Source of the DNA: Thermodesulfovibrio sp.
GTDB taxonomy: Bacteria; Nitrospirota; Thermodesulfovibrionia; Thermodesulfovibrionales; Thermodesulfovibrionaceae
DNA length: 64,000 nt
Assembly: GCA_020725335.1 (NCBI GenBank)
Contig: DYFF01000020.1
Location: 1-64,000 of the forward strand
Direction of reading: 5' to 3'
Positions 28,982 through 43,652 of this stretch are shown here, one piece after another (the first letter of the stretch is position 1; each line of letters starts with the position of its first letter). Both the position numbers and the translations under genes were made by a program. The notes beneath the pieces were generated by a model that worked only from the letters and a program-made list of their open reading frames with translations, ran no database searches and was not told where the DNA came from.

Positions 28982-29313
28982 GTATGGAAAAACACCTGAA
29001 AGAATTGCTAATTCACCAATTAAAACAAAGGCTTAACAAAATCAAACAAGATTTAGAACCTCTTTCTGAAGCTCCCCCTGATTTAAAAATTATGAGCTAT
29101 GGAATGGTCATTGGATATATTGACATAATTACAGAAAAGGAAATTAAGCCAGATAGGATAGCTCAATGGAAAAAACTAATCTCTCAAGGGAATAAATTAA
29201 CAATTATTATTCCTAAGGAAGAAAAGCTCAAAATTACAGAAACTCTTTGGAAAGAAGGTATAGCTGAGAAGGTAAGCATAGGTGTTTATGAGATAAATTT
29301 ATTTCTGCCGTGA
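28978..29313 (+). CDS. hypothetical protein
   Basis: 111 aa, not recognised. An amphipathic N-terminal helix (KELLIHQLKQRLNKIKQDLEPL) is followed by an alternating strand-helix pattern. Start overlaps the SspB-like stop (ATGA), so it belongs to the lgt transcript. Its 3' end overlaps phoU by 15 nt in the opposite direction. Confidence 0.6.
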   Translation: MSMEKHLKELLIHQLKQRLNKIKQDLEPLSEAPPDLKIMSYGMVIGYIDIITEKEIKPDRIAQWKKLISQGNKLTIIIPKEEKLKITETLWKEGIAEKVSIGVYEINLFLP

Positions 29314-30003
29314 CATAAAGTCTTCTAAACAAAGTTTTTGCACTTCCTCTGTTACAAAAGTTCCTCTGAGCATCTTCCCTTCCACCATGTAAATAACCAT
29401 TTCTGCTATATTTGTTGCATGGTCAGATATTCTTTCAAGATATTTAGCAACAAACATTCTCTTTAAAGCAAGCGGAATTATTTCAGGATTTTTTACCATT
29501 AAACTGAATAATTCATTATGATTATTTTGAAGGAGTTCATCTACTTGATCATCTCTCTTAATTACTTCATAACATAAATCAACATCCTCTTTCACAAAAG
29601 CATTAATAGCATCTTCAACCATACTCTCGGTAATTTCAGCCATTTTGGGAATGTTTACAAAAGGCTTAAGAAATGGCTCTTGATTGAGTTCCATTGCTCT
29701 TTCTGCTATATTTACTGCAAAGTCACCCATTCTTTCAAGATCTGTGCTTATCTTCATTGCAGTTGTAATAAATCTTAAATCTTTTGCCATAGGTTGTCTA
29801 AGCGCTATTAATCTTATACATTCCTCATTTATGTCAACTTCAAGTCCATTAATGATACTATCTCTTGAAACAACTTGTTTAGCAACCTCGTTATCTCTTT
29901 CTATTAATGCTTTAACTGCTTTTCTTATTCCTTCTTCTACAAGACAACCGAGTATAAGGATTTTTTCCTTTAATTTTCTTAATTCATCATCTAAAATACC
30001 CAT
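29299..30003 (-). CDS. phoU: phosphate transport regulator PhoU
   Basis: 234 aa. Two PhoU repeats: ALIERDNEVAKQVVSRDSIINGLEVDINEECIRLIALRQPMAKDLRFI then TDLERMGDFAVNIAERA, and in the second half VIKRDDQVDEL..ERISDHATNIAEMVIYM. These E/D-x3-D metal motifs are intact. PhoU links Pst transport to PhoR/PhoB signalling and represses the regulon when phosphate is ample. ATG 30003 is preferred over an upstream in-frame ATG (30060) because GAGGAGG lies just before it and the protein then starts at the family position. Last gene of the pst operon. Confidence 0.94.
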   Translation of the reverse strand: MGILDDELRKLKEKILILGCLVEEGIRKAVKALIERDNEVAKQVVSRDSIINGLEVDINEECIRLIALRQPMAKDLRFITTAMKISTDLERMGDFAVNIAERAMELNQEPFLKPFVNIPKMAEITESMVEDAINAFVKEDVDLCYEVIKRDDQVDELLQNNHNELFSLMVKNPEIIPLALKRMFVAKYLERISDHATNIAEMVIYMVEGKMLRGTFVTEEVQKLCLEDFMSRQK

Positions 30004-30102
30004 CCCTGCCTCCTCAAGGTTCTTTAGCTTATTATACAGCTTAGCAGTTTCTATAAACAAGCTTGATGATTATTAAAAATTATTGCTTTCTCATAAAAAA
30101 GT

Positions 30103-30480
30103 TTAATTTAAATGATAATAATTTTGCTCAACATATCGAGCAATTATTGGAAATCTATGGGATTTAAGTTTGTACAACATTTTCTTAGCCTCATTATTAT
30201 TTATATTTCTCAAGGCTTTTGCTATTTCCATCAATATAACTGGATCTTCTTCTTCCTCTATCATAATTGAAAATTCATTAATTGCTTTTTTAAATTTTTT
30301 TAAACCTATAATAAAAATTATAAGTCTTCTGATTTCTTTAACAGGATGTTTAAGCGATAATATTAGTTTATCCTCATAACTCAGAGAGTTAAAATTCCTT
30401 AAATCATATTTACAGTAGCGACAAATAATTATTCTGTCTGATATGGATTTCCAACAGTTGGGGCAAAAAAAATGAATCAT
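30103..30480 (-). CDS. small zinc-ribbon/HEAT-like protein in the pst operon
   Basis: 125 aa. The N-terminus has two CxxC knuckles (FFCPNCWKSI..IICRYCKYDL), a zinc ribbon. The rest is alpha-helical with HEAT-like repeats (KHPVKEIRRLIIFIIGLKKFKKAINEF; EEDPVILMEIAKALRNIN). Start taken as ATG 30480, one base after the pstB stop; an in-frame TTG upstream lies inside pstB. Not recognised as a known Pho component. Position between pstB and phoU suggests a role in, or co-regulation with, phosphate signalling. Confidence 0.7.
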   Translation of the reverse strand: MIHFFCPNCWKSISDRIIICRYCKYDLRNFNSLSYEDKLILSLKHPVKEIRRLIIFIIGLKKFKKAINEFSIMIEEEEDPVILMEIAKALRNINNNEAKKMLYKLKSHRFPIIARYVEQNYYHLN

Positions 30481-30481
30481 T

Positions 30482-31345
30482 TTAGCCAAATCTACCGGTT
30501 ATATAGTCTTCTGTAAGTTTTTGTGAAGGAACAGTAAATATCTTTTTGGTTCTATCAAATTCAATTAATTCACCCAGATACATAAAGCCTGTATAATCAG
30601 AAACTCTCGCTGCCTGCTGCATATTATGAGTAACAATTATAATAGTTAGCTTTTCTTTGAGTTTAATTATTAACTCCTCAATCTTTGAAGTTGATATAGG
30701 GTCAAGCGCGCTTGTTGGTTCATCAAATAAGACTATATCTGGTTCAATTGCAATTGCTCTTGCAATACAAAGTCTCTGCTGCTGACCTCCTGAAAGAGAA
30801 TAGGCATTAGCATCAAGTCTGTCTTTAACTTCATCCCAAAGAGCAGCAGAGTTAAGTGCCCATTCTACTCTTTCGTTGATTAAATTTTTGTCTCTTACAC
30901 CGTTTACTCTTAAGCCATATGCTACATTTTCAAAAATTGACTTTGGAAAAGGATTAGGTCTCTGAAACACCATGCCTATCCTTCGTCTAAGGTCAAGAAG
31001 ATCTATGTGCGGACTTGCTATGTTAATTCCATCTGGATGAAAAATTATAGCTCCTTCATATCTTGAACCTGGATAAAGGTCGTGCATTCTGTTAAAACAT
31101 CTAAGAAGAGTGGTTTTCCCACAGCCACTTGGACCTATAAGAGCTGTAATTTTTTTAGTTGGTATGTTTAGATTAATATTTTTTAGAGCTCTAAAATCTC
31201 CATAGGAAAAGTTTAAATCCTTTACTTCAAGTTTAATCTCTCCTTCAGGTTTTTGCATTGCTCTTGTTTTCTCCTCCGCTGAAACTCTGTCTGAAGCTCC
31301 TAAAAAAAGATTTTTAATGCTGTCTATCATGGTTCCGATTACCAT
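30482..31345 (-). CDS. pstB: phosphate ABC transporter ATPase PstB
   Basis: 287 aa, with an unusual N-terminal extension of about 35 residues before the core ([20 protein letters not shown]). Walker [33 protein letters not shown], signature [15 protein letters not shown], Walker [17 protein letters not shown], and [15 protein letters not shown] with the PstB-type Met-Gln-Gln. AAGGAGA precedes the ATG. Overlaps pstA by 7 nt. Confidence 0.97.
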
Positions 31346-32259
31346 ATATACTTTCTCCTTACTTTTTGCCTAAAGTAGTAAGCTAATGCATTCATTAAAA
31401 CTGTCAAAATAAGTAAAACAAAACCCGCAGCAGCAGCATTTATCTGAAAGGCTGCCTGAGGCCTTGAAACCCAGTTAAATATCTGTATAGGTAATACTGT
31501 AAAGGGAGACATGAGAACTTCCCAGATTTTATCAGGTGCAATAAAGGGAAATTCTGAGGTAAATGGCGAAGGAGGTAAAAAAGCTATAAATGTTAGTGCG
31601 CCTATTGTTACAAGAGGTGCTGTTTCTCCAATTGCACGGGATGCAGCAATTATGAGGCCTGTAAGGATTCCTCCCAATGAATATGGTAATATATGGTCTC
31701 TAACAGTATCCCACTTTGTAGCACCTACTGCATAAGCTCCCTCTCTTATATCACGAGGAATTCTTCGAATTGCCTCTCTCGTATTAACAACAATTACTGG
31801 CAACATTAGAATACTTAGAGTAAGTCCAGCAGTTAGTATGCTTTCTCCAAATTTAAATCTATATACAAAAATACCTAAGGCTAAAAGTCCATATATAATT
31901 GCTGGCACTGCTGCAAGGTTGTTTATATTAAGTTCTATTATTGTCTCAATTTTACCAAAGATTCCTCTTTTTGTTGCGTATTCCTCAAGATAAATTCCTG
32001 CAGGTATACCTATTAGTAATGACCAAAATATAGCCCCTGCCATTACAAGAAGAGTGCCTATCCAACCAGAGAGTATTCCAGCCTGGCTTGGAAATCTTGA
32101 AGGATAGGATGTGTAAAATGAAGGATCTTTTATTTTTTCAAATCCATCAATAAATACATCAATTATTAGAGTAAGCATAAAAGAAATAACAATCAAAAAA
32201 GCTAAAAAACCTAAAATTGGAAATAGAATATCTGACCTCGAATTAAGCTTTTTGTTCAT
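31339..32259 (-). CDS. pstA: phosphate ABC transporter permease PstA
   Basis: 306-aa inner membrane permease with six main hydrophobic segments and the EAA-type loop ([31 protein letters not shown]). [22 protein letters not shown] is the PstA/PstC family motif. Forms the channel with PstC. Starts 3 nt after the pstC stop. Confidence 0.95.
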
Positions 32260-32262
32260 ACT

Positions 32263-33156
32263 TTAATATACCTCTCTTATTCTTGACCGTAGCCAAAGAG
32301 CAATAGAGTTAAAAACAAAGGCTATTACAAACAATGCAAGACCTACAGCAAAAATTGATAAATATTCAATTGAACCAAATGGTAGATCTCCCAACGCAAC
32401 CTGAACTATGTATCCTGTCATTGTTTGTATAGGTTCTCTCGGATCCAAAGTCAAGTTAGGATACATTCCTGCTGCAATTGCCACAACCATTGTTTCTCCA
32501 ATAGCACGAGATGCACCAAGGATGAAGCCAGCTACAATTCCAGATACTGCCGCAGGTATGACTATTGTTACCGCAGTCCTTAATTTTGTCGCACCAAGTG
32601 CATATGAAGCCTCCCTTATTCTTTGGGGTACTCCCTTCATTGCATCTTCAGCCATAGAAGCTGTATAGGGAAGTATCATAAAACCCAGAACAATCCCGGG
32701 TGCAAGTGAATTGAAGGCTTCCAAATCCGGCACTATCTTTTGAAGAATAGGAGTAACAAACAAAAGAGTAAAATAACCGTAAACAACCGTAGGAATAGCC
32801 TCTAAAAATTCAATTATTGGCTTTGCTATTTCTTTAACTCTTACTGAAGCATATTCGCTTAAGTAGATTGCTATTAGTAATCCTAAAGGAATTGATACAG
32901 CTACAGCTATCGCAGCTATCATGAATGTACCAGCAACAAGTGGCCATATCCCAAACTTTTTTGTAGCAAAAACAGGAGTCCATTCCTTTTCAGTCAGAAA
33001 TTCTTTTATAGAAACTTCTTTAAAAAATTCAATAGAGTCCGAAAGTAAAACATAAACTATTCCAATAGTGATAAAGATAGTAATAAAGCCGGCGGTGAAG
33101 AACACCGCCAGCATTAGTTTGTCTAAAAATTTTTTATGGGCTACGCTTGAAAACAA
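32263..33156 (-). CDS. pstC: phosphate ABC transporter permease PstC
   Basis: 297-aa permease. N-terminal helix then a periplasmic loop (LSDSIEFFKEVSIKEFLTEKEWTP) typical of PstC. The EAA loop is EDAMKGVPQRIREASYALGATKLRTAVTIVIP, followed by [21 protein letters not shown]. Immediately follows pstS (19 nt). Confidence 0.95.
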   Translation of the reverse strand: MFSSVAHKKFLDKLMLAVFFTAGFITIFITIGIVYVLLSDSIEFFKEVSIKEFLTEKEWTPVFATKKFGIWPLVAGTFMIAAIAVAVSIPLGLLIAIYLSEYASVRVKEIAKPIIEFLEAIPTVVYGYFTLLFVTPILQKIVPDLEAFNSLAPGIVLGFMILPYTASMAEDAMKGVPQRIREASYALGATKLRTAVTIVIPAAVSGIVAGFILGASRAIGETMVVAIAAGMYPNLTLDPREPIQTMTGYIVQVALGDLPFGSIEYLSIFAVGLALFVIAFVFNSIALWLRSRIREVY

Positions 33157-33175
33157 ATCTAATTTATCCTATTAA

Positions 33176-34195
33176 TTAGTGTTTTGTCTCTCTTTTAAGA
33201 AGCTCTTCTACTGTAAGTCCTACTTCAATATGTCCACCAAAGACTGTTCCAGTTTGCATCTTCTTAAATCTGTCAAGAGCCATTTCATATGCCTTTGCAG
33301 GAAGAGGAATTGCACCAACCTGTTTTGTAATTTTACCAGCTTGCTTTAAATAGAATTCTATAAATTCTTTAATTTCAGGCTTTTCCTTTGCTGACTTTTC
33401 ATTAATATAGATGAAAAGCGGTCTTGAGAAAGGCTGATATGAGCCATCCATAACTGCTTTTTCGCTTGGCAGTACGCATTTACCTGTTTTAGGATTTTTT
33501 ATTGCTACAGCTTTTACTTTACCTTTGTTCTCCTCAACATAGGTAAATCCTACATAACCTAAACCACCAACTTCCTTAATTACTGCATTCATGATTACAT
33601 TGTCATCTTCACTTGCCACATAATCACCTCTACTTGCCTTAGCTTTTCCAACAGCTGCTTCTGTAAAATACTCAAATGTTCCAGAATCTGCACCAGGTCC
33701 TGCAAGTCTTAGAGGTCTGTCTGGCCAGCTTGGGTCAACTTGATTCCATTTTGTGACTTTACCCTGAGCCTCAGGTTCCCAAATCTTCTTTAGCTGTTCA
33801 ATTGTCAGGCAGTTGTCTTTTATCCAATTATTTTTAACATTAACAAAAACAGAAAGTGCATCATATGCCACAGGTAATTCAATATACTTTATACCTGCCT
33901 CTTTGCATGCATCCATCTCTTTTTTCTGAATTGGTCTTGAGGCATTTGAGATATCTGTTTCCCCTCTGCAGAACTTTTTAAAGCCCCCACCTGTTCCTGA
34001 GATACCAACTGTTACCTTTACTGCTCCTTTTTTAGCCTTCTGGAAATCTTCAGCTACACCCTCTGTGATTGGAAATACTGTTGATGAGCCATCAATCTTA
34101 ATTATTGGCTGAGCACTAACAGATGAAAAGAAAGACAATAGGAATACTACAACAAAGACAAAGGAACTGAAACATAAACTTTTTGAATACTTCAT
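33176..34195 (-). CDS. pstS: periplasmic phosphate-binding protein PstS (first paralogue)
   Basis: 339 aa with a Sec signal peptide (hydrophobic residues about 5-28, cleavage near VSAQ-P). Mature start [21 protein letters not shown] and [25 protein letters not shown], then [12 protein letters not shown], are phosphate-binding loops of the PstS type found in many thermophiles and cyanobacteria. First gene of pstSCAB-(zinc ribbon)-phoU. AGGGGG precedes the ATG. A TATACT -10 at 34237-34232 (minus) lies just downstream of the shared PHO box. Confidence 0.95.
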
Positions 34196-34231: not shown

Positions 34232-34237
34232 AGTATA
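34232..34237 (-). promoter_or_regulatory. pstS (minus) -10 element
   Basis: TATACT on the minus strand with a start near 34225 and a leader of about 30 nt holding AGGGGG. There is no -35; the PHO-box array begins 10 bp upstream, as expected for an activator-dependent promoter. Confidence 0.5.
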
Positions 34238-34246
34238 GAGCTTGAA

Positions 34247-34307
34247 TGTTACATGGTAATTACAGAAATGTTAAATTTTTGTTACAAAGTGAGAAGGATT
34301 TGTTACA
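34247..34307 (+). promoter_or_regulatory. PHO-box array between the divergent pstS genes
   Basis: Four consecutive 11-bp units start at 34247, 34258, 34269 and 34280 with cores TGTTACA, AATTACA, TGTTAAA and TGTTACA. A further TGTTACA at 34301-34307 contains the -10 (TACAAT, 34304-34309) of the plus-strand pstS. The 11-bp helical phasing and replacement of the -35 match PhoB/PhoP binding sites in other bacteria. The phoBR genes themselves are not in this window. Confidence 0.75.
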
Positions 34308-34338
34308 ATAAGAAAATTGAAGTTTTAAGGAGGATTAT

Positions 34339-35346
34339 ATGATCAAAAAATTAATTCTGTTGTCAACTTTATTTATCTTATTAGGATTCAATCTTTCTTA
34401 TTCTTCTGAAATGATTAATGGCGCAGGGGCTACCTTCCCCTATCCTCTATATTCAAGCTGGGCTGCTGAATATAATAAAGCTACTGGTATAAAGATTAAT
34501 TATCAATCAATTGGTTCAGGTGGTGGGATAAGACAGATCACGGAAAGAACTGTCCATTTCGGCGCCTCTGACATGGCTCTAACCCCTGAAGAAATTGAAA
34601 AATCTAAACTCCTTCAATTTCCTGCTGTAATAGGCGGAGTTGTACCGGTATTAAATCTCCCTGGTATAGCTTCAGGCAGTGTAGTACTTGATGGTGCTAC
34701 AATATGTGACATATTTCTTGGAGAAATCAATAAATGGGATGACCCTAAATTGAAAGCACTCAATCCTAAGCTTAATCTACCTTCTAAACCAATAACTGTA
34801 ATATATCGTTCTGATGGTTCTGGGACAACAGCAATCTTTACTCACTATTTAAGTGGTACATGTAAAAAATGGGCTGATACAGTAGGATACGGGACATCTG
34901 TAAAATGGAGAACAGGACTTGGTGGAAAAGGCAATGAAGGTGTTGCAAACTATGTAAAGAGAACTCCTTACTCAATTGGATATGTTGAGTTTGCCTATGC
35001 AAAACAAAATAAGCTTAATGTAGCAAAACTCAAAAATAAAGCAGGACAAGTTGTAGCACCCGATTTTGAAAGCTTTGCTGATGCTGCAGCAACTGCTCAA
35101 CTTGACGCCAAAAATCACTTTTATGCATGGATGACCGATGCACCTGGTAAAAAGGCATGGCCTATAACAGGAGCTACCTATATTTTGCTTGCAAAGGAAA
35201 AAACCGATATTAACAAATCTGTTATTAAATTTTTTGAATGGGCCTTCCAAAATGGTGATGAAACAGCCAAAAAATTGGACTATGTTCCCTTACCAAAGCC
35301 TGTCAAAGATAAGGTAAAGAATTACTGGAAAACAAACATAAAATAA
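34339..35346 (+). CDS. pstS: periplasmic phosphate-binding protein PstS (second paralogue)
   Basis: 335 aa with a Sec signal peptide (about residues 1-22). Mature start MINGAGATFPYPLYSSWAAEY, then IGSGGGIRQITERTVHFGASD, and IYRSDGSGTTAIFTHYLS are the phosphate loops of the E. coli-type PstS. It is only distantly like the divergent first PstS, so the two are not recent duplicates. Single-gene transcript with strong ribosome-binding site (AAGGAGG), PHO box upstream and a strong terminator downstream. Confidence 0.95.
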   Translation: MIKKLILLSTLFILLGFNLSYSSEMINGAGATFPYPLYSSWAAEYNKATGIKINYQSIGSGGGIRQITERTVHFGASDMALTPEEIEKSKLLQFPAVIGGVVPVLNLPGIASGSVVLDGATICDIFLGEINKWDDPKLKALNPKLNLPSKPITVIYRSDGSGTTAIFTHYLSGTCKKWADTVGYGTSVKWRTGLGGKGNEGVANYVKRTPYSIGYVEFAYAKQNKLNVAKLKNKAGQVVAPDFESFADAAATAQLDAKNHFYAWMTDAPGKKAWPITGATYILLAKEKTDINKSVIKFFEWAFQNGDETAKKLDYVPLPKPVKDKVKNYWKTNIK

Positions 35347-35417: not shown

Positions 35418-35609
35418 TTATACTATTGTGTTTTTAAGATAAAAAGAAATTTTTTTATAAATCTCTACAATATCACCATTTTCTACGAAATCTGATAAAT
35501 TACCATGTAAAATCATATTGTTCAGGTAGCTTTTATCGATTGAAAATTGAGATAACACAGGAATTTTAATAATTGTATTTTCTTCCTCAAAAATTTTATT
35601 TCTTTCCAT
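35418..35609 (-). CDS. small hypothetical protein
   Basis: 63 aa, not recognised. Contains IPVLSQFSIDKSYLNNMILHGNLSDF and ends in a hydrophobic helix. A good ribosome-binding site (AGGAGG) precedes the ATG and it starts 8 nt after the metallophosphoesterase stop. It is bounded downstream by the strong terminator, so it is very likely a real last gene of the operon. Confidence 0.65.
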   Translation of the reverse strand: MERNKIFEEENTIIKIPVLSQFSIDKSYLNNMILHGNLSDFVENGDIVEIYKKISFYLKNTIV

Positions 35610-35617
35610 ATTTCCTC

Positions 35618-36334
35618 CTATTTTGCTAATGAAAGTTTTTCACCAAAATAATAAGGCAATCCGCTTTCAATTATTGAATTGAGGGTTTTTTTAATATCAT
35701 ATTCTTCTCTTATAAAACGCAGATCAACTCCCGATTTACTAATCTCAAGAATGGTTATACATGTTCGAGGGTCTCCATCTTTAGGCTTCCCAACGCTCCC
35801 TGCATTTATGAAATATTTATCCCCTATTTTTCTATGATAGGGAATGTGTGTATGTCCGTAAATCATTATATCAGCATCAGTTTTTTTAGCCATTAGAAGA
35901 AAAAATTTTTCTGGTCTTTCTTCATACCAGTATAAATTATTTTTAATTGGAGTTGCATGAAATATACTTATTTTTTTATTCTCTACTGTAAAATTAATTC
36001 TAAATGCTAAAGTCTTCATGAAATCTTTTGATTTTTCACTTGTATGCATCTTTGTCCATTCAAAAGATAGATGAGACATCTCTGCCTGAAATTCATCCTC
36101 ATACTTACAACCACAGGTTTCTTTTTCAAAAGCTATCGATTCATCATAGTTACCTTGGACACCTTCAATTTTATGCTCAATTAAAAAATCTACAACCTCA
36201 TTTACAAAAGGGGCATATCCGCCAATGTCGCCAAGATGAAAGATCTTTTCAGCACCCTCATTGACAGCTGTTTCATAGGCAACTTTTAATGCCTCTATGT
36301 TGCCGTGAATGTCGCCAAGAATACCTATTTTCAC
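35618..36334 (-). CDS. calcineurin-like metallophosphoesterase (YfcE/MJ0936-like)
   Basis: 238 aa. Metal-binding motifs in order: LGDIHGN (6-12), HLGDIGG, GNYDES, FHATP, and YGHTHIP near 170, ending with INAGSVGKP. Cleaves phosphodiesters; substrate unknown. Two cysteines in ETCGCKY are unusual. In the phosphate operon it could act on diesters released during starvation. A PlcP-like phospholipase role is conceivable but its sequence is closer to the small YfcE-type enzymes. Confidence 0.88.
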   Translation of the reverse strand: MKIGILGDIHGNIEALKVAYETAVNEGAEKIFHLGDIGGYAPFVNEVVDFLIEHKIEGVQGNYDESIAFEKETCGCKYEDEFQAEMSHLSFEWTKMHTSEKSKDFMKTLAFRINFTVENKKISIFHATPIKNNLYWYEERPEKFFLLMAKKTDADIMIYGHTHIPYHRKIGDKYFINAGSVGKPKDGDPRTCITILEISKSGVDLRFIREEYDIKKTLNSIIESGLPYYFGEKLSLAK

Positions 36335-36352: not shown

Positions 36353-37903
36353 TTATGATATGTGAAGCTTGAGATGCTCTTCCCATTCTCTCTCCGTGAT
36401 TGCTTTAGCATAGGATATTGCATCCTGCCTGTTCATTTTTGGATTTGAATGTTTAATATTTAAATGGTTACACATAACATTATATAATTCCGTATTGTCT
36501 ATGAAATTTTTTAAATCTGCTACGTGAAAATTCTTACCATAAATCAAAGCAAGCTGATCCTCTGCAGTATGATTTGTTGAGGTAAAACTTACATTTCCTC
36601 TTCTTTGTTTTGCTGGCTTAATTAGTTTTTCCTCTTCATAATCATAAATACTCTTCGCGAGTATTCTGCCCATAGTAGCCTCAGGTTCATACCATATGTC
36701 ATTTATTACAATTTTTTTCTTGGTATTGAGCTTATTGAAAATTTCCTCTGCCTCTTCAGAGGAGATTTTCTGTTGAGTATAGGTCTCAAATATATCCTTT
36801 ACTGTATTTACATCTTGATTTTTCATTTTTTTTATCATGTACTCAAAGGAAGCTCTGTTTTTATAACTCATTAAGGCTTCTGTTGCGTCATTATATTCAG
36901 GACCTGTTCCATTGATTCCATATCCAGAGTTACCATGGTCAGAGGTAACTATTAGTAAAACATCGGGATTTTTGTTTACAAAATTCATTGCAACTCCTAT
37001 AGTTTTGTCAAGTTCATAGCAGTCCATCATAGCAGCATAAGCATCATTAGCATGACAAGCGTGGTCAATCCTTCCAGCCTCAATCTGAAGAACAAAACCC
37101 TTTTTATTTTTAGATAATTTTTTCAACGCAACAGCAGTCATCTCAGGTAATGTAGGCTCTTTTTTACCGAGCTTTTCATCGTTAATTCTGTCAACAAAAT
37201 AACTTATATGAGATGAACTGAATACTCCAAGAATAGGGCTATTATCGGAGATGCTGTCCATCAATTCATCTTTCGTTTTTACTACTCTATAACCTTTTGA
37301 GGAAAACATACCGTAAAGGTCTCTTTTGTCTTTTCTTTTATCTGCACTTAAAAATCTATCACCACCACCCATTGCTACTGTTAAACCAGAATTAAGCAAG
37401 TCAATTGCAATGTTTTCTTCATCATCTCTGTTTGCATTATGGCTATACCATGCAGCAGGAGTTGCATGAGTTACCCTTGTTGTAGTTACAAAACCACAAG
37501 ATAGTCCTCTCTCCTTTGCAAGTTCAAATATAGTCTTTAAATGTTTTCCATCGGGTAGAGTTGCTAAAGTACGGTTAACTGTTTTTGAACCAGTTGCCCA
37601 GGCAACAGAAGCTGGAGCAGAGTCAGTAACAACTGAGGATAAAGAAGAGGTATTTTGAAGTAACATTTTTGTTTTAGAATTTTTAATTAAAATAGAGAGA
37701 TTGCTTCTCTCTTTAAATTTGATTTCCATAAATTCGTTCATTGCCTTCATCACTCCAAGAGGCCAACCATCTCCTACAATAAAGATCACACCCTTTGAAC
37801 CTGCACTTGATGGTTCCTTAACTTTCGCAAAAATTTCTTTAGACGAAGAAATAAGAGTTATAAAGCTTGCTAAAGAGACCTTCAAAAAATCCCTTCTTTT
37901 CAT
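36353..37903 (-). CDS. alkaline phosphatase (PhoA superfamily), Tat-exported
   Basis: 516 aa. N-terminus MKRRDFLKVSLASFITLISS is a twin-arginine signal. Active-site nucleophile region TDSAPASVAWATG (about 91-103), metal ligands in VGDGWPLG (N-terminal Asp), TRVTHATPAAWYSH, EAGRIDHACHANDA and TSDHGN. Releases phosphate from organic esters in the periplasm. GGAGG precedes the ATG. It lies in the operon under the second PHO box, as expected for a phosphate-starvation enzyme. The C-terminal part is somewhat longer than E. coli PhoA. Confidence 0.93.
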   Translation of the reverse strand: MKRRDFLKVSLASFITLISSSKEIFAKVKEPSSAGSKGVIFIVGDGWPLGVMKAMNEFMEIKFKERSNLSILIKNSKTKMLLQNTSSLSSVVTDSAPASVAWATGSKTVNRTLATLPDGKHLKTIFELAKERGLSCGFVTTTRVTHATPAAWYSHNANRDDEENIAIDLLNSGLTVAMGGGDRFLSADKRKDKRDLYGMFSSKGYRVVKTKDELMDSISDNSPILGVFSSSHISYFVDRINDEKLGKKEPTLPEMTAVALKKLSKNKKGFVLQIEAGRIDHACHANDAYAAMMDCYELDKTIGVAMNFVNKNPDVLLIVTSDHGNSGYGINGTGPEYNDATEALMSYKNRASFEYMIKKMKNQDVNTVKDIFETYTQQKISSEEAEEIFNKLNTKKKIVINDIWYEPEATMGRILAKSIYDYEEEKLIKPAKQRRGNVSFTSTNHTAEDQLALIYGKNFHVADLKNFIDNTELYNVMCNHLNIKHSNPKMNRQDAISYAKAITEREWEEHLKLHIS

Positions 37904-37918
37904 AAGTCCTCCGATTTT

Positions 37919-39091
37919 CTAATTTGTAAATGCAGTCTTAAGTTTGTTAAAAATGACTCTTATGGAAGACACACTATCAGTTGGAATTATCATGGTATCT
38001 TTACCAATTATATAAGTATTATCCCGCCAACTTAGTTTGCAGCTTATCAAAGGCACAAACCATATAAAAGCAGTTAATAAGTCTTTAATAGGAATGAGAA
38101 GACCTGATATCCCCGTAGGAGTTTTAATTAATCTACTAACATAAATATCAAAATAAATTTTTAATAAAGCACCTAAAATAAATACTAAAATAGAAATTTT
38201 AGAAAAATTATCTAAAATAGGTAAAAATGATAAAACAAATATAGGATTGCTAAGAGGTTCAGTAAAGTATTTTAATCCTGCTATTTTCCATCTTATCTTT
38301 GCCCATCTTGTATGTCTATTTAAAAATCTTCCTAATGACCAATATTCGTTAATATTCTTGATAATATAACTGCTAAGGACTACTTTTTTACCCTTTTCAT
38401 TCATTAACTTTCCAATCATATAGTCTTCTGCTAAAACATCTTTTACAGCGTTAAAGCCTCCGATTTCTTCAAAGTCACTTTTTCTCATAAGCATAGACTT
38501 GCCAATGCTACAAGGCATTTTAAGAAATTTATCAAGAAAGCAAACACTTAAAAGTATAAATGAATTAAGTTGAAGATTCTCTAATCTCGCACCTATGCTT
38601 TTCCCTGAAATTCCCATAATTAGATTTGTCACAAGTCCTGTATCTTTTGACATAGCAGATACTGTTTTTTTCAGATAATCTTTCTCAACAAATACATTAC
38701 TATCACTTATTAAAAAATAATCATGTTTTGATACTCTGTAGGCTGATATCATATTCTTTACTTTTGGATTTAGAGCTCTCGGGGAACTATCAACTACGAT
38801 TCTTACTAAATTAGGATATTTATTCTTTATTTTTTCTGCCACTCTGTATGCAGGGTCATTAATATCCTGAATAGAAAGGAGTAGCTCATAGTCAGGATAA
38901 TCTTGTTTGCAGAAACTTTCAAGGTTATCAAAAAGGTTATCATCGAGTCCCTTAAGCGGCTTAATTATTGATATAGGTGGAAGATAATCTACATTATAAT
39001 TCTCATTTAGCTTTCTTCTGAGTGCTATAATCTGTAAAAGATAAATTGAAAAACTTAAAACAGCAATCGATAAAACTATCCACAAAATCAT
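37919..39091 (-). CDS. membrane glycosyltransferase, GT21/HpnI-like
   Basis: 390 aa. One N-terminal transmembrane helix, then a GT-A domain: SIIKPLKGLDDNL, ISDSNVFVEKDYL (DxD region), LAEDYMIGK (catalytic Asp), and RHTRWAKIRW, the Q/R-x-x-R-W motif. C-terminal hydrophobic helices follow. This is the ceramide-glucosyltransferase-like (GT21) family, which also includes hopanoid HpnI, so the acceptor is a lipid. Placement in a PHO-box operon with phosphatases suggests a glycolipid made when phosphate is scarce; HpnI-type hopanoid work is the alternative. AGGGGG precedes the ATG. Confidence 0.85.
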   Translation of the reverse strand: MILWIVLSIAVLSFSIYLLQIIALRRKLNENYNVDYLPPISIIKPLKGLDDNLFDNLESFCKQDYPDYELLLSIQDINDPAYRVAEKIKNKYPNLVRIVVDSSPRALNPKVKNMISAYRVSKHDYFLISDSNVFVEKDYLKKTVSAMSKDTGLVTNLIMGISGKSIGARLENLQLNSFILLSVCFLDKFLKMPCSIGKSMLMRKSDFEEIGGFNAVKDVLAEDYMIGKLMNEKGKKVVLSSYIIKNINEYWSLGRFLNRHTRWAKIRWKIAGLKYFTEPLSNPIFVLSFLPILDNFSKISILVFILGALLKIYFDIYVSRLIKTPTGISGLLIPIKDLLTAFIWFVPLISCKLSWRDNTYIIGKDTMIIPTDSVSSIRVIFNKLKTAFTN

Positions 39092-39093
39092 CT

Positions 39094-39783
39094 CTACCCC
39101 CTAAAAAGTGTTATTGCTACGCCTTTGTTATGCCTTATACATTTTTTTATTGAAACGATATTCTTCTCGCAGTTCAGAAGAGTTTTCCACGAATAAAGAT
39201 GTCTTGGCTTATGAAAATCGCTATTAGCAATATAGGGATATTTTTTAAGACTTACAACATTAAAGACGTCATCTCTATTCGCTATCTCCCATGCATCTAT
39301 GTATTTCCCGTATTTATTTCTGTTATTCCAAAGATAAAGAGTATTCCTAATCTCTCCTTTAATATGATGAGGGTGACAGGCAACAACTATCGCCTGCTGT
39401 TTTTTTGCTTGAAGGAAAATGGATTCATATGATTCGCAGGGAGGAATAAACTCTTTAATATCAAGTATTAGAATATGCGCTGATTTATCCGATGATAGGT
39501 AATTTTTGCTTATTTCTACTCCTGGAATAACAAGCATCTCATATTTATTCCATGCTCTTTCTGCCTCAAAATTTATATTTTCCAAATATTCATTAAAATT
39601 ATTTTCTGTAATGGTAAATCTAAACTTATAAGCAATTTTTCCTATCAAACTATCTCCATTTACCGCATGGTCTGTTATCGCTATAGCATCAAAACCAGCC
39701 TGACCAAAAATGTCTACTACTTTTCTTAGTTCTACTGAACCATCTGAGTATTTGGTATGTATATGGAAGTCACATAAGAGCAT
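39094..39783 (-). CDS. PHP-domain metal-dependent phosphoesterase
   Basis: 229 aa. PHP metal motifs: DFHIHTKYSDGS (4-15), ITDHAVNG, GVEISKNY, ACHPHH and NSDFHK. PHP domains hydrolyse phosphoesters of nucleotides, amino acids or sugars. First gene of the PHP-GT21-phosphatase-phosphoesterase-hypothetical operon, and starts only 2 nt from the GT21 gene. No Shine-Dalgarno is visible at its ATG. The PHO-box array lies 77 nt upstream. Confidence 0.88.
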   Translation of the reverse strand: MLLCDFHIHTKYSDGSVELRKVVDIFGQAGFDAIAITDHAVNGDSLIGKIAYKFRFTITENNFNEYLENINFEAERAWNKYEMLVIPGVEISKNYLSSDKSAHILILDIKEFIPPCESYESIFLQAKKQQAIVVACHPHHIKGEIRNTLYLWNNRNKYGKYIDAWEIANRDDVFNVVSLKKYPYIANSDFHKPRHLYSWKTLLNCEKNIVSIKKCIRHNKGVAITLFRG

Positions 39784-39859
39784 ATTTTTAATTTAATGAT
39801 ATCTAAGTAACGTTACAGATAAGTTAAAAAAGTTTTAAATTTAGGTTAAATTTTGGAAT

Positions 39860-39903
39860 TAAATTTAACATTCTTTTAACATTCTTTTAATTTTTATTTA
39901 ACA
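39860..39903 (-). promoter_or_regulatory. second PHO-box array, upstream of the PHP/GT21/phosphatase operon
   Basis: On the minus strand four consecutive 11-bp units start at 39903, 39892, 39881 and 39870 with cores TGTTAAA, AATTAAA, TGTTAAA and TGTTAAA. The unit order (second unit AATTA) is the same as in the pst array, and the orientation toward the phosphatase operon matches that of the pst array toward its gene. TAACCT (39848-39843) could be the -10. The array also lies between this operon and the divergent EAL operon. Confidence 0.7.
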
Positions 39904-39950
39904 AATTTTTGTAATAATTTCATTATGTTAATTTTGATGGAGGCAATAGC

Positions 39951-40709
39951 ATGTTACAGACTGAGAGAAATATCAGTACTTATGAGAAAAATTTAATATA
40001 TTCTGAATTAACTGTGCATTTTCAACCAATATTTTCATCTAAGAATGGAAAAATTTTTGGATATGAATCATTAACAAGACATAAATCCAAGAATTTGAAT
40101 ATTGAGAATCTTTTTATTGAGGCTAAAAAAAATGGTTCCATCTTTATTCTTGATATGATCTGCCGAAGAAATGCCTTTAAAGAGGCATCAAAACAGAGAA
40201 TTGACGGTTATCTATTTATTAATATATGTCCTGAAAGTCTTTTTTATCCTCAACATGAAATCGGTATTACAGACCGATTTTCTGAGGAGTTTAATTTTCC
40301 CAAAAATAGAATAGTACTTGAAATTACCGAACAAACAGCTATAAAGAATTATGAAGTATTTATTAAGTCAGTATCCTATTACAAAAAAAGAGGCTACAAG
40401 ATAGCTATAGATGATTTCGGAGCGGGATTCGGAAGTCCTAAGCTTCTTAGCCTGCTTGAGCCTGATATAGTGAAAATAGATAGATATTTCATTCATACCT
40501 TAGATGAGAATTATTTTTCTGAATCTTTTATTGATTTTACAATAAAGGCTTGCCATAAGCTTAATATAATGGTTGTTGCAGAGGGTATAGAAACTCCTAA
40601 TCAACTGAGTACGGTTATAAATATGGGTGCAGATCTTCTTCAGGGTTACTATCTTGGTAGACCCGAAGAAAAAATAAAAAATTTCTTATTCCAATATGTT
40701 AATCAATGA
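39951..40709 (+). CDS. EAL-domain cyclic-di-GMP phosphodiesterase
   Basis: 252 aa, a single EAL domain. Catalytic motifs look intact: ESLTR (E-x-L-x-R), the NICPES segment, LEITEQT, AIDDFGAGFGS, VKIDRYF, VAEGIETPNQ, and LLQGYYLGRP. Predicted to hydrolyse c-di-GMP. GATGGAGG precedes the ATG. The 3' end overlaps the CBS-GGDEF gene by 14 nt in another frame. Together the two genes have the EAL-CBS-GGDEF order seen as single proteins elsewhere. Confidence 0.9.
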   Translation: MLQTERNISTYEKNLIYSELTVHFQPIFSSKNGKIFGYESLTRHKSKNLNIENLFIEAKKNGSIFILDMICRRNAFKEASKQRIDGYLFINICPESLFYPQHEIGITDRFSEEFNFPKNRIVLEITEQTAIKNYEVFIKSVSYYKKRGYKIAIDDFGAGFGSPKLLSLLEPDIVKIDRYFIHTLDENYFSESFIDFTIKACHKLNIMVVAEGIETPNQLSTVINMGADLLQGYYLGRPEEKIKNFLFQYVNQ

Positions 40710-41724
40710 GGTCGAAATTTCCATTAAATGTTCAACCGAGTCCTCTATATTAGATCTATTAATTGGAGATATTTCAATTAAGGTCGAGCCAATAAATAAA
40801 ACCGCATCAATTATGGACGTTTTTCTTAGATTTATGAAGGATGAGCAGCTTAGTTTAATTCCGGTAGTAGATAATAATATTGTTATTGGACAGGTTCAGA
40901 GAAATAGGTTTCTTGAAAATACAGTGCTTGGAAGATTTGGTTACGGGATTCATTTAAATGCTAAAAAATCAATTTATGAAGTAATGGAAAAACCGACCTT
41001 CATACTCGACTATAATATAACTCTTGAGGAAGCTTCAATGATAATTCAAAAAAGAGAGCTTAAACATATATATGATGATATAATCATAAGTAGATATAAT
41101 GAATATCATGGTGTGGTTCCCATAAATGTTCTCCTCGAAACTATTACTCAGAGATCAATTATTATTGCAAGAGATTCAAACCCTCTTACAGGGTTACCAG
41201 GAAATTGGGCTATTCAAAGAGAAATAGAGCGAAGAATTAGAGATAAATGTGTTTTTGATGTGTGTTATATAGATATTAATCATTTTAAGCCATATAACGA
41301 CTGCTACGGCTTTGAAAAAGGTGACAAGGTAATCACCTATCTCGGTAATATTCTTAAAGATACTATAATAGACATTTCTGATAGCTTTATAGGTCACATA
41401 GGTGGAGATGACTTCATTATGGTTACTAAACCAGCACACTCTAAGAGTATATGTGAAAAAGTTATAAAGTCCTTTGAAGAACTATTGCCAATTTTTCATG
41501 GTGAAGATTTCATTAATGGTTATTATGTTGCAAAAAATAGGAAATATGAGGAGGAAATATTCAGTTTACTCTCACTTACCTGTGCTATAGTAAGTACAGA
41601 GACAAGAAGAATAACTTCTTTTGCTCATCTTGCATCTATTGCCTCTGAAGTTAAGACAGAGGCAAAAAAACTTTCAAGAATAAACAAAAATTCAGTTATA
41701 TTCAAGGATAGAAGAAATGAATAA
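40696..41724 (+). CDS. CBS-pair GGDEF-domain protein
   Basis: 342 aa. Residues about 20-150 are a CBS pair (IMDVFLRFMKDEQLSLIPVV; KSIYEVMEKPTFILDYN). Residues about 165-340 are a GGDEF domain: NPLTGLPGN, CYIDINHFKPYND, and the signature as G-G-D-D-F. An Asp in place of the canonical Glu leaves activity open; no RxxD inhibitory site is seen. There is no Shine-Dalgarno before the ATG, which lies inside the EAL gene, so translation probably depends on termination-reinitiation. Overlaps the kinase by 8 nt. Confidence 0.85.
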   Translation: MLINEVEISIKCSTESSILDLLIGDISIKVEPINKTASIMDVFLRFMKDEQLSLIPVVDNNIVIGQVQRNRFLENTVLGRFGYGIHLNAKKSIYEVMEKPTFILDYNITLEEASMIIQKRELKHIYDDIIISRYNEYHGVVPINVLLETITQRSIIIARDSNPLTGLPGNWAIQREIERRIRDKCVFDVCYIDINHFKPYNDCYGFEKGDKVITYLGNILKDTIIDISDSFIGHIGGDDFIMVTKPAHSKSICEKVIKSFEELLPIFHGEDFINGYYVAKNRKYEEEIFSLLSLTCAIVSTETRRITSFAHLASIASEVKTEAKKLSRINKNSVIFKDRRNE

Positions 41725-42412
41725 AGTTAATATTCCCTATATCTCTATCTATTCCCATGAACTAAAATCACCATTAAATGCTATCTTTAATCTTGCTAAA
41801 CTGATTCAATTAAATCTCGATAAGCCCGATGAAGAAAAGGTAAAAAAATATCTATCTCTTATTGTTTCGCAGACTTTATATATGAAAAATTATATATCTA
41901 ATACAATTGAGCTTGGTAAACTTCAAATTGGAAAGGAATTAGTTGTCTCTGAAGAATTTGATCTTGTAGAAATTATGGATGAAATAGCTGAAGTATCCAA
42001 AATTCTCATAGAAAATAGAAATATAGAGATAAAAACTCTTTTCCCAGTTGATAAATTTATTATAAAATCTGACCCTCTAAAAATCAAACAAATCTTAATG
42101 AATATTGCCTCAAACTCAGCAAAATATACAAAAAATGGTTATATACTTTTTAGCTTTCAAAAATTTAAAAATCAAGTAATAATAATGATTCAGGATACAG
42201 GAAAAGGTATTCTTAAGGAAGATTTTGAAAAAATATTCAACCCATACTGTTCCTTAGAATCATTACACGAAAAATTTATTGAGAGTACCGGCTTAGGGCT
42301 ATATATAACTAAAGAATTATTAAATTTGATTGGAGGAAATATTTTAATAGAGAGTGAATATGGAAAGGGAACGACAGTTTACATATCAATCCCATATAAA
42401 ATCAAAAAATAG
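41717..42412 (+). CDS. sensor-less histidine kinase
   Basis: 231 aa. Dimerisation/phosphoacceptor helix with H14 (SHELKSPLNAI), and HATPase domain with N-box NIASNSAKYT, G1 DTGKGIL, and G2 TGLGLYI. No transmembrane or input domain, so the signal must come through the neighbouring EAL/CBS-GGDEF proteins or another partner. No response regulator gene is adjacent. Overlaps both neighbours. Confidence 0.88.
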   Translation: MNKVNIPYISIYSHELKSPLNAIFNLAKLIQLNLDKPDEEKVKKYLSLIVSQTLYMKNYISNTIELGKLQIGKELVVSEEFDLVEIMDEIAEVSKILIENRNIEIKTLFPVDKFIIKSDPLKIKQILMNIASNSAKYTKNGYILFSFQKFKNQVIIMIQDTGKGILKEDFEKIFNPYCSLESLHEKFIESTGLGLYITKELLNLIGGNILIESEYGKGTTVYISIPYKIKK

Positions 42413-43652
42413 CTATTTTCTCTGGGGTGTTGCGACTTCTGCCTTTCAGCTGGAAGGCTCTCCCTATGCTGATTGGTCTACCTGGGATAGTATTTTTAAC
42501 CTTAATCCTAAGATAACCAATCATTATGAACTATATAAGGAAGACATAAAACTCATCAAAAATTTAGGCGTTAATGCCTATCGTTTCTCTATTGAATGGA
42601 GCAGAATTCAACCTTCTGAAAACTATTGGAATAAAGATGTAGTTAGACATTATCAAAAAATTATTGACATTCTGAATGATAATAAAATAAAACCAATGGT
42701 TACTATTCATCATTTTACCCATCCCGTCTGGTTTATTACTAAATATCCATGGCATACAAAAAAATCAGTGGAAAAATTTAATGAATATGTAGAAAGACTT
42801 ATTGATAGTATAAAGGGAGTTGACTATTGGATCACTTTCAATGAACCTTATCTTCTCATACTTGGAGGTTACTTAGAGGGTTGCATTCCTCCAGGATATA
42901 AAGATTTAAATTTAGCTATTAAAGCTTTAAAAAATATTTTTATTTGCCATGGTGATATTTATGATCTAATCCATATAGCGAATAAAAATGCTATGGTTAG
43001 TATTGCTCATAACATGGCTGTTTTTGCACCTTGGGTACGATGGAATCCGCTCGATAAGATTTTATCAAAAATAGCGAAAAAATTTTATAACCAATCAATA
43101 ATAGAAGGATTTATAGACGGCAAAATAACCCTACCATTGCCTTTTAGAAAAAAAATTGAAATAGAAGTACCTATTCAAGGAAAACTGGATTTCTTTGGGA
43201 TAAATTACTACACAAGAGTTCACATGAGATTTAATCCCTTTAAGAAACTTTTTATAGAATTTCGCCATCGGGATATAGATGGACACGGTCTTACTGATAT
43301 GGGATGGGAAATATATCCAAGGGGATTAAAAAAAGTCTTAAGGTATGCTTCAAAACTTAATGTTCCCTTAATTATTACTGAAAACGGAATTGCTACTAAG
43401 GATGATAGTAGAAAAATTAAATATATAAAATCTCATGTTGATATGATTGAAAATGCCATAGCAGAAGGAATAGATGTGAGAGGTTATTTTTACTGGTCTC
43501 TAATTGATAATTACGAATGGCTTCACGGACTTGACGCAAGATTTGGGCTTTACAGAGTTGATTTTAAAACTTTCAAAAGAACACCTACTAAAGCAGCTCA
43601 TTTTTATTCATATCTGATTAAATCAAGAAATTTCATCAATCAAAATGTCTAA
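42360..43652 (+). CDS. glycoside hydrolase family 1 (beta-glycosidase)
   Basis: About 430-aa cytoplasmic TIM barrel. N-terminal signature FLWGVATSAFQLEG. Acid/base Glu in WITFNEP (about E162), nucleophile Glu in LIITENGIA, and the aglycone-site EWLHGLDARFGLY near the C-terminus. Hydrolyses beta-glucosides, beta-galactosides or similar. The start is placed at ATG 42360, inside the kinase gene (about 50-nt overlap); GTG 42354 is an alternative. Last gene of the EAL operon, an odd companion for signalling genes. Confidence 0.9.
   Translation: MERERQFTYQSHIKSKNSYFLWGVATSAFQLEGSPYADWSTWDSIFNLNPKITNHYELYKEDIKLIKNLGVNAYRFSIEWSRIQPSENYWNKDVVRHYQKIIDILNDNKIKPMVTIHHFTHPVWFITKYPWHTKKSVEKFNEYVERLIDSIKGVDYWITFNEPYLLILGGYLEGCIPPGYKDLNLAIKALKNIFICHGDIYDLIHIANKNAMVSIAHNMAVFAPWVRWNPLDKILSKIAKKFYNQSIIEGFIDGKITLPLPFRKKIEIEVPIQGKLDFFGINYYTRVHMRFNPFKKLFIEFRHRDIDGHGLTDMGWEIYPRGLKKVLRYASKLNVPLIITENGIATKDDSRKIKYIKSHVDMIENAIAEGIDVRGYFYWSLIDNYEWLHGLDARFGLYRVDFKTFKRTPTKAAHFYSYLIKSRNFINQNV

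Follow-up and report, generated by a model that had tools for sequence, protein, structure and literature searches.

Two probable back-to-back PHO-box promoters serving a putative phosphate-sparing module in Thermodesulfovibrio

The 167-bp gap at positions 39784-39950 of the window, i.e. of the whole 64,000-nucleotide stretch analysed, DNA of the thermophilic sulfate reducer Thermodesulfovibrio, is likely to represent two back-to-back PhoB-activated sigma70 promoters serving a putative phosphate-sparing module. An earlier note on this DNA had taken the 11-bp repeats found here for PhoB-type sites, and the array direction, −10 spacing, conservation and genome-wide specificity, all read from the sequences, argue for this assignment; PhoB binding and induction are what we infer.

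Materials and methods

The window is part of a nearly complete genome of 1.8 Mb. Close relatives of this genome carry the name Thermodesulfovibrio (Nitrospirota, Thermodesulfovibrionales). For comparison, 13 other Thermodesulfovibrio genomes supplied the orthologous gap, and 18 genomes of other families the region upstream of PHP. Arrays were aligned by unit score alone, and the −10 element was not used in the alignment. Genome patterns of two and three units were set aside, since control matches were as numerous as real ones.

Detection of PHO arrays and chance controls

On the minus strand, positions 39903-39860 read TGTTAAA-taaa-AATTAAA-agaa-TGTTAAA-agaa-TGTTAAA with an exact 11-bp phase. 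A second array, close to the pst genes (34247-34286), reads TGTTACA-AATTACA-TGTTAAA-TGTTACA on the plus strand, the same unit order that the earlier note had given for it. These arrays consist of 7-bp units in 11-bp head-to-tail phase with at least two units, as in the definition of the PHO box (PMC4415409).

Across the entire 1.8-Mb genome, exact four-unit arrays (TTAMA N6) were found at four places only: the array first reported in the gap (box A), the pst array, 39813-39850 on the plus strand (box B), and one site on contig 19. The backwards-pattern control of this search gave 0 + 3 matches with one mismatch tolerated, and first-order Markov versions of the window contained 0 arrays in 150 trials (9.6 Mb). 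By the exact sequence, the genome search and the Markov control, the four 11-bp-phased units are real and not a product of chance.

Orientation of the arrays and spacing of the −10 elements

Toward its gene, the unit has the form TKTAAYA/TGTMAYA in all genus relatives compared and in E. coli phoA, pstS and phoB. In the TKTAAYA direction, a −10 element starts 9 bp past the last 7-mer in four independent sets. Mean matches to TATAAT at this spacing were 4.7/6 for box A in the genus (12 genomes), 5.0/6 for box B in the genus (14 genomes), 5.0/6 for box B in other families (14 genomes), and 5.1/6 for the pst array (9 genomes). In the reverse direction no −10 peak was present at spacing 9, the corresponding values being 2.7 (box A), 2.6 (box B), 1.7 (box B, other families), and 1.9 (pst). 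As measured on the sequence record, E. coli K-12 phoA, pstS and phoB show spacing 9 in the TKTAAYA direction as well, while the phoE match is weaker. Based on unit direction and the −10 at spacing 9, box A was assigned to the EAL operon starting at 39951 (+), box B to PHP at 39783 (−), and the pst array to pstS2CAB-phoU at 34195 (−).

This assignment differs from the earlier one, in which box A drove the PHP operon. Box A does lie upstream of PHP, its units read TGTTAAA in that direction, and the near-palindrome makes the direction ambiguous by eye; the opposite orientation arose because TGTTACA/TGTAACA is near-palindromic and TGTTAAA, the reverse complement of TTTAACA, was taken as sense. An assignment of box A to the PHP operon is nevertheless very unlikely, since there is no −10 at a fixed spacing on its PHP side, a different array, together with a conserved −10, belongs to PHP, the relatives L101 and L104 keep box B without box A, and the E. 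coli boxes run the opposite way. Unit direction and −10 point instead to the operon EAL-GGDEF-histidine kinase-GH1. The odd AATTA unit shared by box A and the pst array, which the earlier note had considered unlikely by chance, is real, but relatives, once the arrays are read in the functional direction, show it as no more than a weaker third unit: TTTAATT/TTTAAAA in box A and TGTAAAT/TGTAATT/CGTAAAA in pst.

Box A and the EAL operon

Box A (39864-39903, +) reads TTTAACA-TTTAACA-TTTAATT-TTTAACA toward the EAL operon and is followed after 9 bp by the −10 element AATAAT (39913-39918, +). It is kept in 12 of the 14 genus members compared. The other two, L101 and L104, have lost it along with the EAL operon; there, yajC-secD-secF is found in place of EAL and box B is retained. 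A GGAGG ribosome-binding site (39939-39943, +) precedes the gene of the EAL c-di-GMP phosphodiesterase (39951-40709, +; PF00563, 168.4 bits), in the translation of which all catalytic residues (ExLxR, N, E, DD, K, E, Q) were found by eye. The operon continues with a CBS-GGDEF protein bearing the variant motif GGDDF (40696-41724, +) and a histidine kinase core without sensor domain (41717-42412, +), both recognized by domain match, and ends with a GH1 beta-glycosidase (42354-43652, +; PF00232, 288.7 bits; PDB 1vff, E=5.2e-88). In relatives, a longer histidine kinase is paired with the CheY-like receiver. EAL and CBS-GGDEF are two separate, overlapping genes in Thermodesulfovibrio and one fused protein in other families (L114:744-2633, L117:9624-11501, L120:1317-3173).

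Box B and the PHP operon

Box B (39811-39850, −), which had been missed in the first reading of the sequence, reads TTTAACC-TTTAAAA-TTTAACT-TGTAACG toward PHP. Its −10 element TATCAT (39796-39801, −) lies 9 bp after the box and 12 bp before the PHP start codon. All 14 genus members have box B, as do most of the remaining families in the order Thermodesulfovibrionales. In these other families GH1 is located upstream of PHP in the same direction, and the gap, often just 57-59 bp, is filled by box B and the −10. The distance from the −10 to the PHP start codon is 7-12 bp, with no ribosome-binding site, in the window and in L120, L123, L127 and L129. Because the −10 can be located about 7 bp before the ATG, the PHP message of other families would be leaderless, and the sequences predict a leaderless or nearly leaderless PHP mRNA across the order.

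Downstream of box B, the minus strand encodes a PHP-family metal-dependent phosphoesterase of the TM0559 type (39094-39783; PF02811; PDB 2anu, E=7e-87; AlphaFold/Foldseek), a GT21 lipid glycosyltransferase resembling ceramide glucosyltransferase (37919-39091; PF13506, 158.7 bits; ceramide glucosyltransferase structures, E=1.8e-63), an alkaline phosphatase with the twin-arginine signal RRDFLK (36353-37903; PF00245, 230.9 bits), and a YfcE-like metallophosphoesterase (35618-36334; PF12850, TIGR00040). The sequence features give good support to the proposal that the operon of PHP, GT21, PhoA and metallophosphoesterase belongs to the Pho regulon, via box B, and the regulon probably includes the EAL arm, too. 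The 63-aa protein listed as the last member of this operon does correspond to an ORF (35418-35609, −), but comparison with relatives identified it as what is left of the C-terminal part of a CheY-like receiver; most of them have this receiver in full length. L101 (L101:3258-3449) and L104 (L104:3803-3991) carry both the truncated receiver and a full-length one that has a PHO box to itself. Since two relatives carry both forms, the short form may have been retained for some reason.

The pst locus

Read in the functional direction, the pst array (34247-34286, −) is TGTAACA-TTTAACA-TGTAATT-TGTAACA and is followed after 9 bp by the −10 element TATACT of the pstS2 promoter (34232-34237, −). By direction and −10 it drives the operon pstS2-pstC-pstA-pstB-(128-aa ORF)-phoU (29299-34195, −). 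The earlier note had oriented the array to the pstS gene at 34339 (+); it faces the minus-strand pstS2CAB-phoU operon instead, and no PHO box facing this other gene, pstS1, was found. A conserved −10-like TACAAT directed to pstS1 lies 17 bp past the pst array (region 34279-34309). Possibly, pstS1 uses a plain sigma70 promoter overlapping the array, and the two divergent pstS genes may be differently controlled.

Further putative Pho sites in the genome and in the order

In the window's own genome, the pattern of array plus −10 identified box A, box B and pst at 0-1 mismatch. Matches with three mismatches, a level about equal to that of the control, include a natural Pho target, the GntR-phn C-P lyase operon, after which comes a PhoB/PhoR-like pair. 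At this place on contig 2 (G000:C2), a PHO-like array with the −10 TATACT at spacing 10 (L203:15556, −) was located before the GntR-UTRA gene (L203:14657-15493) and the phn operon. By promoter pattern, the sites in the genome are restricted to pst, the two operons described here and phn, plus one odd site on contig 19. This fifth strong array (G000:C19, L134:6365-6404, +) precedes the genes of a small InsA-type zinc-ribbon protein and of an HMA_2-domain protein; a P-type cation ATPase adjoins, the −10 TTAAAT is poor, and a start codon follows closely.

The PhoB-like regulator of the genome (G000:C2:64634-65311) scores 273.7 bits against a curated PhoB cut-off of 296.2 and has a PAS-type kinase adjoining and the phn operon upstream. 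The E. coli-type geometry of the arrays suggests that it is a functional equivalent of PhoB.

When 22 loci of other families and of Desulfurella were scanned, 67 promoters composed of array plus −10 came up, compared to 0 in reversed sequence. They precede PHP, pstS, pstC, phoA, a histidine kinase-receiver pair, EAL/GGDEF-GH1 and a phoB operon, and the phoB-type regulator in L129 has its own PHO box. The region of the window is A+T-rich, and the arrays could be regarded as functionless low-complexity sequence. We give this explanation virtually no credence in view of the empty Markov versions, the four exact arrays in 1.8 Mb, the lack of promoters in reversed sequence, and the conservation across the order, which includes GC-richer genomes. 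As a side observation, the first gene in several PHO-box operons of the order encodes a small cysteine-rich protein with no Pfam match (L113-L129, clusters c12, c16, c17 and c22; e.g. L127:2794-3012, L114:499-717).

Distribution of the GH1-PHP-GT21 core

Of 61 genomes, the 35 that carry a PHP orthologue are also those that carry one of GT21 (Fisher P=8e-18), and GH1 was found in 33 of these 35. Wherever both were called, PHP and GT21 are adjacent and codirectional, with gaps of −4 to 251 bp. In Desulfurella acetivorans, GH1-PHP-GT21-pstS are arranged in line; no PHO array above threshold was found in the vicinity of the Desulfurella triad. The complete genus members G001 and G009 are without GH1, PHP and GT21, and the triad is thus non-essential in the genus. 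The conserved core is GH1-PHP-GT21 rather than phosphatase and GT21; PhoA and metallophosphoesterase are variably present. A PHP homologue with 48% identity was seen in a Freyarchaeota MAG (L182:10001-10675) without GT21 or GH1 neighbours.

Protein features and a possible lipid role

GT21 enzymes make beta linkages and GH1 enzymes cut them, so a GT21 and GH1 pair fits the building and unbuilding of a beta-glycosyl lipid. In the GT21 protein the motifs DSN, ED and RHTRW are intact, RHTRW and ED being invariant in 19 sequences, and its alignment to ceramide glucosyltransferase structures is nearly full-length. GH1 has both catalytic glutamates (TFNEP, ITENG), with TFNEP and I/VTENG invariant in 18 sequences. 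Its closest solved relative is BGPh of P. horikoshii (PDB 1vff), a membrane-bound archaeal enzyme for which, to our knowledge, no link to Pho control exists. BGPh is membrane-associated and favours long-alkyl beta-glucosides (PMC4687101). PHP belongs to the same family as Thermotoga maritima TM0559 (PDB 2anu) and has the same fold (46-47% identity, TM about 0.85, by AlphaFold/Foldseek). TM0559-type PHP is known by structure, available since 2005, and no activity or substrate was found for the family.

The best NCBIfam match of GT21 is HpnI with 229.7 bits, which would mean glycosylation of bacteriohopanetetrol. This is extremely improbable, because the score falls short of the curated cut-off (310) and a search of 16 genomes of the genus found a squalene-hopene cyclase in none of them. 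Moreover, in G018, where the cyclase does occur, a separate GT21 paralogue with 30% identity to the query lies less than 5 kb from it. An HpnI or hopanoid role was rejected for the genus by score and by the lack of the cyclase.

The PhoB sites could also be real and the module have a role other than in membrane lipid, either in polysaccharide (extracellular or of the envelope) or in the scavenging of phosphate: GT21 would act on another lipid carrier, GH1 would degrade sugars from storage or exopolysaccharide, and PHP and PhoA would scavenge phosphate esters. The EAL/GGDEF genes and a beta-glucosidase share the regulon, and phosphatases of nucleotides and of RNA ends are among the PHP-family proteins, which is in line with this explanation. 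We consider it unlikely, as GT21 is a lipid glycosyltransferase family with the nearly full-length match mentioned above, PHP and GT21 occur together in 35 genomes, and the closest solved relative of GH1 is membrane-bound and prefers long alkyl chains.

Discussion

From its sequence features, the control mechanism appears to be of the classic PhoB type. At low phosphate, phosphorylated PhoB would bind the four head-to-tail units, i.e. two PHO boxes, at box A and likewise at box B, replace the −35 contact and bring RNA polymerase to the −10 starting 9 bp past the last 7-mer. Box A, reading on the plus strand, would turn on the EAL phosphodiesterase, the CBS-GGDEF protein, the histidine kinase and GH1; box B, reading on the minus strand, would turn on PHP, GT21, alkaline phosphatase and metallophosphoesterase. 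As in the E. coli PhoB promoters phoA, pstS and phoB, the arrays are made of 11-bp head-to-tail 7+4 units reading TGT(A/C)A(T/C)A toward the gene, with the −10 at 9 bp. In contrast to the E. coli PHO boxes, the unit is T-richer (TTTAACA), there are usually four units, two promoters lie back to back in 167 bp, and the leader before PHP is very short or missing.

With regard to function, we lean somewhat toward a phosphate-sparing membrane-remodelling module. The phosphoesterases, and PHP foremost as the conserved one, would release phosphate from lipid-derived phosphoesters; GT21 would add a sugar to a lipid acceptor (diacylglycerol, diether glycerol or ceramide, in the genus not a hopanoid); and GH1 would trim or recycle the beta-glycosyl lipid. 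EAL may lower c-di-GMP so that starved cells detach, by analogy with RapA of Pseudomonas fluorescens. In strain Pf0-1, RapA is an EAL c-di-GMP phosphodiesterase that is controlled through a Pho box and expressed when phosphate is low (PMC3032545); unlike RapA, the EAL protein of the window is encoded together with GH1, a GGDEF protein and a histidine kinase lacking a sensor domain, all in one operon.

The lipid remodelling suggested for this operon in the earlier note therefore remains plausible as the best functional reading, but it is not undescribed in kind, since Pho-controlled glycolipid synthesis is known from other bacteria (PMC3972451, PMC5193443, PMC4796936). Lipid remodelling by PlcP and Agt/Pgt upon phosphate starvation has been described for Sinorhizobium, Agrobacterium, SAR11 and Desulfovibrio alaskensis (PMC3972451; PMC8231724; PMC5193443), and Pgt of Agrobacterium is a GT21 enzyme with a predicted Pho box (PMC3972451; PMC8231724). 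Common to these systems and the module is a lipid glycosyltransferase and a phosphoesterase under Pho control, here with box B and GT21 in one operon and with control and activity predicted from sequence. Different are the partners, namely a PHP phosphoesterase and GH1, the phosphoesterases of the window being PHP and the YfcE-like enzyme. The novelty consists in the pairing with PHP and GH1, in a promoter with two arms and in a conservation that spans this order of Nitrospirota, and the module is a variation on Pho-controlled PlcP/Agt-type remodelling; limited searches of the open literature revealed no description of a GH1-PHP-GT21 Pho module in Nitrospirota. Quite tentatively, the Thermodesulfovibrionales might even possess a phosphate-starvation glycolipid cycle of their own, Pho-tied to c-di-GMP, with PHP in the role of PlcP, GT21 making the sugar lipid and GH1 dismantling or extending it.

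Work on environmental lipids has proposed that Thermodesulfovibrionia may be producers of the monoglycosyl diether lipids found in phosphate-poor serpentinite fluids (PMC10667739). The module is a candidate for the genetic basis of these monoglycosyl, possibly diether, lipids, which are dominant in phosphate-starved serpentinite waters where the class is abundant. The data provide a Pho regulon map at the sequence level that spans an entire order, made up of deep-branching and largely uncultured sulfate reducers together with related Nitrospirota, and they point to a putative three-gene glycolipid module, GH1-PHP-GT21, which lacks annotation as such. If the lipid reading is true, it would give a function to TM0559-type PHP enzymes, and the producers of monoglycosyl lipids in phosphate-poor serpentinite fluids would become testable.
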